In this document: positions 28,153 through 30,997 of the stretch, in pieces
Layout: every line of letters begins with the position of its first letter
Position numbering within the stretch: position 1 is the stretch's first letter
Assembly (NCBI GenBank): GCA_031287525.1
Contig: JAITSU010000002.1
Location: 1 to 64,000, forward strand
Direction: 5' to 3'
DNA length: 64,000 bases
From: Zoogloeaceae bacterium
Lineage (GTDB): Bacteria; Pseudomonadota; Gammaproteobacteria; Burkholderiales; Rhodocyclaceae
Made by a program: the position numbers and the translations under genes
Notes under the pieces: generated by a model
Database searches by the model: none
Told to the model about the DNA's origin: nothing
Seen by the model: only the letters and a program-made list of their open reading frames with translations

Positions 28153-28240
28153 TGCGCGAAAATCTGGAGCGGGCGATGGGAATCGAACCCACGGCTCTAG
28201 GCGGGTAAGGGGATGACCTCGCGGTCACCCCCTCCCCTAA

Positions 28241-28274
28241 GAACCGTACATGCAAGTTTCCCTGCATACGGCTC
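28241..28274 (-). other. Group II intron domain V
   Basis: A 34-nt hairpin on the minus strand with GAGCCGTATGC / GCATGTACGGTTC arms, an apical GGGAAAC-type loop and the two-nt bulge in the 3' strand. This is the hallmark catalytic element. It lies 19 nt after the maturase stop. Confidence 0.93.
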
Positions 28275-28293
28275 AAGCAACTCATAAGCACCT

Positions 28294-29961
28294 CTACTTG
28301 TACATCGAGATGCCGGCAGCGTCGAATGTCTCCAGGACGTGATGTTGCATATGACAATTCGGATGCAGCAGAACCAGATTGGTCAGCTTGTCCGAGCCTC
28401 GTTGTGATCGCTTGACGATGTGATGAAGATTCCATCCCGTATCTCGCGTGATTTTCTGGTTGTAGACAGGACATATCCCTTCTTGCAACCACCACAAATA
28501 CCGAAGCTTGTATCGCCCTTCGAGCGTCTTGTCCATGCGCCGTGCAAGCCGCTTGGAGAAATACTCGTCGAACTTCGGATCGTATGGATTCGCGTCCGCC
28601 ACTATCTTGGTATGGGGGCGTTTTAAGTACCCCGCCAAGACAGGTAGCAACTTGTCCTGATCCGCAAATTGCCAGTCACGTCCCTTGATGCTTTTGAAGT
28701 AGCGTCGTTTGATCCATCGTTTCCCCTTGTTCGGGTGGCGACGGGACGCCCAACGCCACAAAGCTTGCCAGATTTGGTGGTCGCATCTCGCAAATGTATG
28801 GGATGCCATTTGACTTCGGTGATAATTAGCCCATCCTCTGATGACAGGGGTTAGCTTTTCGATCACGTCAATCTGTCTGGCAGCCTTTCTCTCGCGCAGT
28901 AGTTCGCGGATTTTCCCCAAGAATGCTTTGACATTTTTCTTCGATGGCTGAGTAACCAGCATTCGATGGTCATGCCTGACATTCCACCCCAAAAAGTCGA
29001 ATCCTTCCGTCACATGCGTGATTTTGGTTTTCTTCTCCGCGAGGGTGAGTCCCCGTGTGGCAAGGAATTTCTCCACCAAGGGTTTGACCTTATCTGCCAG
29101 AAACTCCTGCGAGCTTCCGGTAATGATAAAGTCATCCGCGTACCGTACCAGATTGACTTTTGCCGCACGCGCTTCCCGCACCGTTCGGAACAACGTGGTT
29201 AGTTCGTGTTGCAGTCCATCCAGTGTCAGGTTCGCCAAAACAGGGGAAATGATACCTCCCTGCGGCGTACCTGCTTGCGTTGGGAAAAGCTTTCCCGTTT
29301 CGATAAAGCCTGCTTTCAACCACTTCCGAAGGATGCCTTTGTCCATGCAGACATTGGCAACCAGCCAGTCATGACTGATGTTGTCGAAACAACCTTTGAT
29401 GTCTCCTTCCAGCACCCATTTTGGCGATGCTTTCCGACCTAGCACGTTTCGCACTTGTTCGATCGCATCTGCCGTCGAGCGCTCACGTCTGAAACCGTAG
29501 GAATGAGGATCTGCTGTTGTTTCGGAGACAGGCTCCAGCGCCAGTAAATGCAGCGCTTGCATCGCTCGATCACGCATGGTGGGTATGCCCAGAGGACGTT
29601 TGTCACCATTTGCTTTCGGGATATAGATGCGACGTAATGGTAACGGTCTGTATTTCTTGTTGCCAAGATCAACTACCGCCTTCCATTTGTCATCCGGCGT
29701 ACCCCAGGTTTGTCCATCTACACCAGGAGTTTTCCGACCTTGATTCTCCGTGACCTTCCGTACTGCCAGCGTTTTCGCGCTGCTGGATTTGATCAGGAGT
29801 TTTTGCAGGGCGCGAACCTTACGCCATTCCCCTGCTTTTGCTGCCTTCGCTATACGTGTCTGTAGCCTCGCAATAACTTGATAAGCCTTGACCCAATAAA
29901 TCTCGTGCCAAGACTGCCAAGTCGTAGAGGCGACATCGCAATCGGACTGCATTGCGTCCAT
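28294..29961 (-). CDS. ltrA: Group II intron reverse transcriptase/maturase with HNH domain
   Basis: Intron-encoded protein of 555 residues. RT blocks are recognisable: LPLRRIYIPKANGDKRPLGIPT, SYGFRRERSTADAI, EGDIKGCFDNISH, GTPQGGIISPVLANLTL and the catalytic YADD at 274-277. A maturase X domain follows (LTPVIRGWANYHR). A C-terminal HNH endonuclease-type region (about 495-545) has NLHHIVKRSQRGSDKLTNLVLLHPNCH. Its first zinc knuckle reads CPVYNQ instead of the usual CPVC, so one Cys is missing. GGAGGT precedes the ATG by 6 nt, and the intact tRNA-Gly ends only 18 nt before it. The full-length frame suggests an active or recently active intron. Confidence 0.94.
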   Translation of the reverse strand: MDAMQSDCDVASTTWQSWHEIYWVKAYQVIARLQTRIAKAAKAGEWRKVRALQKLLIKSSSAKTLAVRKVTENQGRKTPGVDGQTWGTPDDKWKAVVDLGNKKYRPLPLRRIYIPKANGDKRPLGIPTMRDRAMQALHLLALEPVSETTADPHSYGFRRERSTADAIEQVRNVLGRKASPKWVLEGDIKGCFDNISHDWLVANVCMDKGILRKWLKAGFIETGKLFPTQAGTPQGGIISPVLANLTLDGLQHELTTLFRTVREARAAKVNLVRYADDFIITGSSQEFLADKVKPLVEKFLATRGLTLAEKKTKITHVTEGFDFLGWNVRHDHRMLVTQPSKKNVKAFLGKIRELLRERKAARQIDVIEKLTPVIRGWANYHRSQMASHTFARCDHQIWQALWRWASRRHPNKGKRWIKRRYFKSIKGRDWQFADQDKLLPVLAGYLKRPHTKIVADANPYDPKFDEYFSKRLARRMDKTLEGRYKLRYLWWLQEGICPVYNQKITRDTGWNLHHIVKRSQRGSDKLTNLVLLHPNCHMQHHVLETFDAAGISMYK

Positions 29962-29979
29962 ATCAACCTCCGGTTGTTA

Positions 29980-30054
29980 TGGAGCGGGTGAAGGGAGTCG
30001 AACCCTCGTCTCTTGCTTGGGAAGCAAGGGTAATAGCCGTTATACGACACCCGC
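29980..30054 (-). tRNA. tRNA-Gly(CCC), intact, inside the group II intron
   Basis: A complete 75-nt tRNA gene with encoded CCA: acceptor GCGGGTG/CACCCGC, anticodon stem CTTGC/GCAAG, loop TTCCCAA (anticodon CCC), and T arm GAGGG/CCCTT-type with TTCGACT. It resembles the split tRNA-Gly but is not identical, differing in the acceptor, D arm, anticodon stem and variable region. It lies within the intron, just before the maturase SD. TAGAAT followed by a GC-rich stretch is 42 nt upstream, so it probably has its own promoter. Confidence 0.95.
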
Positions 30055-30095
30055 TCTGAACCTTCGGAGGAAGACGCAATTATCCCCGGGCGGGG

Positions 30096-30101
30096 ATTCT
30101 A
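30096..30101 (-). promoter_or_regulatory. Probable -10 box for the intron-borne tRNA-Gly
   Basis: TAGAAT followed by CCCCGCCC is the arrangement usual for stable-RNA promoters with a GC-rich discriminator. It would give a 5' leader of about 35 nt. No good -35 is visible. Confidence 0.4.
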
Positions 30102-30997
30102 ACATCAACCCCCTCGGGTTTGCGATTAAACAGACCCTTCTTACGAAGAGTCACCAGATGGAAGTCTGCACGCTTTCGCGTCGGGGCGATCGTTTCATCC
30201 CCTATCCTCTCCATTACAGAGCGGCATTCGCTTTTTCCATCCTCCTCTACCTGCACAGGGACAACGACCCTTGCGAGGCGTCTTGTTCTGAAACACGTCT
30301 GCAATAGCGCCCCAATCAGTCGCAAAACTGACCGGAGTGTTATGGATTGCTTTCTGTTGTTAAAGAACGCCCATACAGGCTTACCGCGTTCCGTACAAGT
30401 AACGGAGTTGGGAAGGTCTCGCCTTTTCACCGGTGATACAAATGTCAGCGTATCCACACCAAGCAGGTGGACAACCGATCACATGCCTTTTGGCAAAGCC
30501 CGGTACTGCAAGTTGCTTTTGGCTTATCAAGCTTAACGGTGTTTAACAGCGATTCACTTACGTTGACCATCCAACCCAGCCTAGCGCCTCATCCGGATGC
30601 AACTTCCGAAATCACGCCAAGCCCCTCGCGGAGTATGGCGTACCCCTAAAGGTGGCTACATTGTCAGAGCGCTTAGTACCCCACCGTTGCCAGTGACGCA
30701 CTGCTCCTAGGCTACGAGGTGCTGAAACCCCGGTTCAACCTATTTTCCTACTACTGGACAGCAATGAGAAAATGCCATCCGAAAATAGCAGAACAATTAC
30801 TTGTACAGCTTTCGCCGTCAAGGTTACCCACTTGGAAAAGTGGATGAGAGCAGGTTTTCGCAGAATGAAGCGTCTGACAAGTAACCAGTAACCTTTGCGA
30901 CTCGCGTCGCACGCTTGGGAAGCTAGGGTATTACCATTATACGACGCCCGCATTGATCATCGTTCGGTCACATTCAGGGTGCGCGGAACGAGGCGCG

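Follow-up and report, generated by a model that had tools for sequence, protein, structure and literature searches.

The 64,000-nt stretch analysed here (the window; positions 1 to 64,000 of the forward strand of contig JAITSU010000002.1, from the Zoogloeaceae bacterium assembly GCA_031287525.1) contains a tRNA-Gly(CCC) gene on the minus strand into which a group II intron of 2713 nt (30912–28200) is inserted. The intron itself holds a second, complete tRNA-Gly(CCC) gene, here called the spare, followed by the gene for an intron-encoded protein (IEP). Joining the two exons restores an intact tRNA-Gly(CCC) fold as judged by ARAGORN. The CCA is encoded in the 3′ exon, and the exon boundary and the ends of the intron agree in relatives, in which a spare tRNA-Gly is also found at the corresponding place. 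Rfam covariance models matched domain I (RF02012, 103.9 bits) and domain V (RF00029, 65.4 bits) above their gathering scores, and the IEP reached 378.9 bits with NCBIfam TIGR04416 (cut-off 300). An HNH-like C-terminus is suggested by the protein sequence, together with a weak match to the HNH of IscB at 505–542. The predicted domains I and V, the reverse transcriptase/maturase and the pairing with the exons described below identify the element as a bacterial group II intron with an IEP, of the IIB/chloroplast-like kind.

An IEP search found 80 loci. Some 48 distinct introns, from both Beta- and Gammaproteobacteria, make up the lineage of the window intron; 47 of them interrupt tRNA-Gly(CCC) and one tRNA-Gly(UCC). 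Among those with IEPs above ~60% identity, the insertion point lies between CCAAGC and T wherever the junction could be read, with A in place of the T in two independent cases; the hosts are Rhodocyclaceae, Gallionellaceae, Burkholderiales, Massilia/Duganella, Lysobacterales, Solimonas, Methylocaldum and a few metagenome-assembled genomes. Duganella alba (L028) and Thauera propionica (L040) are culturable carriers. This survey, in which all of the ~48 introns sit behind CCAAGC and ahead of T or A, confirms the original prediction that the anticodon arm of tRNA-Gly is the target. Within this IEP clade, a spare tRNA-Gly stands just upstream of the IEP in every locus complete enough to read, and in loci with an intact IEP and two readable tRNA halves, the joined halves are always intact as well. 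Introns with IEPs near 57% identity lie mainly in groEL and carry no tRNA; when the two types are aligned, the spare appears as an extra piece in domain IV, ahead of the ribosome-binding site. The best IEP matches on plasmids were likewise at ~57% identity. Viral contigs yielded no exact tRNA/intron junction, although six distant IEPs of up to 56% identity turned up there. An orthologous empty site from the same genus could not be shown: only the tRNA halves matched, and the flanking genes did not.

The target is read by exon-binding sites (EBS) of the intron that are complementary to intron-binding sites (IBS) in the exons. EBS1 (GCUUGG) is complementary to the last six bases of the 5′ exon. 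Across 36 aligned relatives it is invariant and occupies a loop of 9 nt; of the seven base pairs in the stem below, six change on both sides yet stay paired. For this stem together with a neighbouring one, 99.0% of cells were paired, compared with 81.5% after shuffling, and covariation was 0.589 compared with 0.223, a value that none of 500 shuffles attained. In relatives inserted at the groEL stop codon, the EBS1 columns contain TACATC, which complements their IBS1 GATGTA exactly, so that all six bases switch with the target, and the EBS3 candidate is A in all tRNA-type introns (whose targets have T at +1 in all but two cases) and T in the groEL type (+1 A); each of these class-level switches amounts to one evolutionary comparison. 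For EBS1, the predicted coordinates are exact, and the apparent hairpin loop and the pairing with CCAAGC were confirmed. For EBS2, the predicted coordinates (30534–30530) and the pairing of AAGCT with AGCTT at −12 to −8 were upheld; in the same alignment, EBS2 lies in an open and largely unpaired region and not in a simple hairpin loop. The EBS2 register is the same in tRNA-type and groEL-type introns, with the base opposite −9 in one shared column, and the last EBS2 base pairs with −13 of the interrupted (host) gene in 14/44 introns, where shuffles give an expectation of 7.5 (p 0.001). Covariation of −12 with EBS2 within the family was looked for and not found. The GCGCUAGG loop, which lies upstream of EBS2, was considered for EBS3 and rejected, because it is mostly unchanged between introns with T and introns with A at +1.

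Table 1. Features of the interrupted tRNA-Gly(CCC) locus, in window coordinates.
Feature	Position	Strand	Evidence and remarks
5′ exon, 5′ half of interrupted tRNA-Gly(CCC)	30913..30951	-	Sequence; ends CCAAGC at 30913
IBS1 CCAAGC	30918-30913	-	Sequence; within 5′ exon
IBS2 AGCTT	30924-30920	-	Sequence; within 5′ exon
Group II intron, 2713 nt	28200..30912	-	GTGCGAC (start 30912) ..TTACCCGCC (end 28200)
EBS2 AAGCUU	30529..30534	-	Pairs with −8 to −12; last base opposite −13
EBS1 hairpin	30451..30473	-	Covariation; EBS1 GCUUGG at 30464-30459 in loop
EBS3 candidate A	30425	-	Pairs with +1 T; unpaired loop downstream of EBS1
Spare complete tRNA-Gly(CCC)	29980..30054	-	ARAGORN, Rfam; 18 nt upstream of IEP start
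IEP, 555 aa, reverse transcriptase/maturase, HNH-like C-terminus (putative)	28294..29961	-	NCBIfam TIGR04416
Domains V and VI	28200..28276	-	RF00029, 65.4 bits
3′ exon, 3′ half of interrupted tRNA-Gly(CCC)	28165..28199	-	Starts TAG at 28199; first base T is IBS3

Only one intron was found in tRNA-Gly(UCC). Its genome (G772) has two introns, L115 (646–3231), which interrupts tRNA-Gly(CCC) and has a CCC spare, and L118 (640–3223), which interrupts tRNA-Gly(UCC) and has a UCC spare. EBS2 of L118 reads AGGCTG instead of AAGCTG, with G for A opposite the changed −9, and the UCC site is paired perfectly. To judge from these sequences, L118 is a member of the lineage that moved to tRNA-Gly(UCC) and whose EBS2 changed to match. 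The anticodon of the spare agrees with that of the interrupted gene in all cases, this one included.

Spares also outlive their introns. In L101 (2085–2680) the IEP is gone and most of domain I is deleted, the 5′ tRNA half is mutated (anticodon CGC), and the spare tRNA-Gly(CCC) is intact. All that is left in L104 (2411–2577) is ~90 nt of intron (domain III/IV) and an intact spare, beside a sequence resembling an insertion sequence (IS); this spare looks domesticated. Three spares are interrupted by another element (L040, L048, L062). At L048:1–510 and L062:2200–5100, the 3′ end of the spare is occupied by integrative elements that have a LysR-type gene next to their junction, GTTCCC(T/A)TCACCCGCTCCA. 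They resemble ICEclc-type elements, which target tRNA-Gly. The element in L040 has a slightly different junction and probably also used the 3′ end of the spare as its landing site. Because no complete tRNA-Gly(CCC) gene other than the spare was found in the window genome, because the spares in G772 match the isoacceptor, and because of the fossils L101 and L104 and the integrative elements that land in spares, we consider the spare to be probably a real replacement. The intron carries a copy of the gene that it disrupts, as a home-and-rescue-like element would. The spare could instead serve the intron itself, by binding the IEP in domain IV or by being excised and so freeing the IEP mRNA, with rescue as a secondary effect. 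Its almost constant position, ~18 nt before the IEP start and beside the ribosome-binding site, would suit such a role, as would the lack of a tRNA at that place in groEL-type relatives; against it stand the anticodon, which always matches the interrupted gene, and the spares that survive dead introns, and we regard it as improbable.

Two further observations concern the surroundings of the spare and its gene family. A small hairpin, often with a UUCG loop, lies immediately 5′ of the spare (30115–30056 in the window) and is conserved in most relatives; a sigma-70-like site upstream of the spare (30108–30079) was not above chance and was discarded. At L102:2277–2612, on a short contig that is perhaps phage or plasmid, a second tRNA-Gly(CCC) is part of a Gly-Thr-Leu-Ser tRNA array.

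In the window, the spare keeps the full match to EBS1, its CCAAGC ending at 30015, and is mismatched at −12, where it has T, and at +1, where it has A, precisely the bases that the original prediction had given. For comparison we used uninterrupted Rhodocyclaceae tRNA-Gly(CCC) genes, with spares and fossils removed and G117, G025 and G125 reassigned. The targetable AGC..GCT arm was present in 115/124 of these genes and in only 5/47 spares (Fisher 2e-25); among the ~150 Burkholderiales tRNA-Gly(CCC) genes listed, ~12 were not AGC..GCT. When host and spare were each scored against the EBS1, EBS2 and EBS3 of their own intron, the host paired better in 42 of 44 introns, the others being a tie (L033) and a loss (L018); the host also paired better in L099, L115, L116 and L118, which were scored beyond the 44. 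Most spares retain the full IBS1 CCAAGC, and several lineages differ in other ways, by a changed IBS1 (CCAACC) or perhaps at −13. On the IEP tree the stem type of the spare changed at least 25 times, and ~13 distinct non-target types occur, including that of a UCC spare. This pattern strongly supports selection for spares that escape their own intron. It could also be the legacy of a few resistant-looking founder spares, inherited or swapped between introns with no ongoing selection; the recurrence of the stem types CTTGC, TCTGC and GAGGC and the weak skew among distinct types (p 0.09) fit such a history, but the number of changes and the variety of non-target types leave it little probability.

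Over the rest of the gene, beyond the anticodon arm, the similarity of host and spare exceeds that of shuffled pairs (0.872 vs 0.846), which makes the difference between them specific to the arm. On the same figures we rejected avoidance of recombination as its cause. The two copies are direct repeats ~900 nt apart in the window, and recombination between them would delete the ribozyme half; we consider this explanation highly improbable. Evasion could also operate on RNA rather than in DNA homing, if the spare differed so that the ribozyme neither uses it as a false 5′ exon nor reopens it in the precursor RNA or the mature tRNA. Spare and ribozyme share one transcript, and the EBS/IBS signature would be identical. 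Yet the full IBS1, the element most expected to change, is kept by most spares, and the folded tRNA hides it; evasion at the RNA level is therefore unlikely, if less so than the other alternatives.

Rescue by a spare that escapes homing, the reading that we favour, has a number of observations against it. With one count per distinct stem type, the skew shrinks to 3/16 vs 10/21 (p 0.09). EBS2 mismatches its own host at −12 in L017, L018, L033, L057, L023 and L058. The last two have TGC..GCA tRNA-Gly(CCC) genes as hosts, in which −12 is T and +1 is A; EBS1 and EBS3 are unchanged in these introns and EBS2 has T opposite −12, so that there is no compensation and both positions are mismatched. Since such genes have been targets, differences at −12 and +1 do not exclude insertion. 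The target survey reveals no visible discrimination, non-AGC arms being found in 2/44 targets and 9/124 natural genes, which do not differ. Five spares (L018, L022, L039, L050, L116) have a target-type AGC..GCT arm; in the latter four, the only mismatch of the spare to EBS2 is at −13, a position at which the host pairs, and L018 is not of this kind. The spare of L018 in fact outpairs its host, and that of L033 equals it. Finally, the window genome has a tRNA-Gly(UCC), which may read GGG; loss of the CCC gene need not be lethal, then, and rescue may not be essential. Apart from −9, that gene matches fully. It was not found to contain any CCC-type intron, an absence that selection against breaking it could explain.

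These observations bear on the original prediction that the spare is immune to homing because its IBS2 and IBS3 differ. The pressure away from the target type is borne out by the skew of the spares and by the better pairing of their hosts. The mechanism as proposed fares less well, as −12 is no strict pairing position and the targets of L023 and L058 carry both of the supposedly protective differences. Lower susceptibility fits the sequences better than immunity does, in view also of the five target-type spares; the likeliest reading is a graded protection of the spare.

Quite probably, then, these introns home to the anticodon arm of tRNA-Gly by means of EBS1, EBS2 and EBS3, and carry in domain IV an isoacceptor-matched replacement that usually mismatches their own EBS and would be a poor target for the intron ribonucleoprotein (RNP). 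The RNP would retrohome to an uninterrupted tRNA-Gly gene by reverse splicing into its anticodon arm. Supply of the tRNA would then not depend on splicing of the interrupted copy, as the spare, once transcribed, would provide it, and splicing would be a second source. Mismatches would arise at stem pairs that can vary without a change of the anticodon (−12/+1, −10/−2 and perhaps −13) and would lower attack by the RNP; the spare may persist because of them. When the spare is processed, the intron RNA would be cut within domain IV, and RNP formation and tRNA release may for this reason be alternative fates. Domain IV is where organellar trans-splicing introns are naturally split.

The lineage is a sister clade of the groEL stop-codon introns, of which that of Azotobacter vinelandii was reportedly described by Ferat and Michel; it is reported in PMC4465626, which cites Michel et al. 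2007. This intron and its relatives have the nearest IEPs (~55–58% identical), the same 5′ end GTGCGAC and the same EBS1, EBS2 and EBS3 positions, and they too occupy one conserved insertion site in a housekeeping gene. Their site differs, however, lying in groEL between ..GATGTA and A, where the intron's first base can rebuild the stop codon; they carry no tRNA, and their EBS sequences are different, EBS1 being UACAUC where the window intron, in tRNA-Gly, has GCUUGG. Chloroplast group II introns also interrupt tRNA genes (trnG, trnK and others). Unlike the introns described here, they are organellar and vertically inherited, and they are not known to carry a spare copy of the host tRNA. Site-specific integrative elements likewise land in tRNA genes and leave the tRNA functional, but they are integrase-based and restore the gene that they enter at its 3′ end, without a separate resistant copy. 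Engineered home-and-rescue and Cleave-and-Rescue drives disrupt a target gene and carry a recoded, resistant copy of it (PMC7968924, PMC7951863). The likeness is one of logic only, an analogy without descent, as these drives are CRISPR-based, designed and used in animals.

On balance, the lineage is probably a natural home-and-rescue retroelement that remains tolerable to its hosts because of its spares; these would have been selected repeatedly to mismatch the guides and would sometimes have become the host's only such gene after the intron decayed. Searches of the open-access literature found no earlier description of a bacterial group II intron with a spare tRNA; subscription papers (e.g. 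Michel et al. 2007) were outside this search. Splicing out is usually seen as the way in which mobile introns survive. The lineage described here appears to have a second strategy as well, a substitute for the broken gene that is altered against renewed attack, so that the logic of engineered rescue drives would here have evolved in bacteria. Its ~48 natural pairs of target and spare would allow the rules of group II intron target recognition to be read from evolution, and the lineage raises the question of how a ribozyme can function when its middle contains a tRNA and hence RNase P sites.
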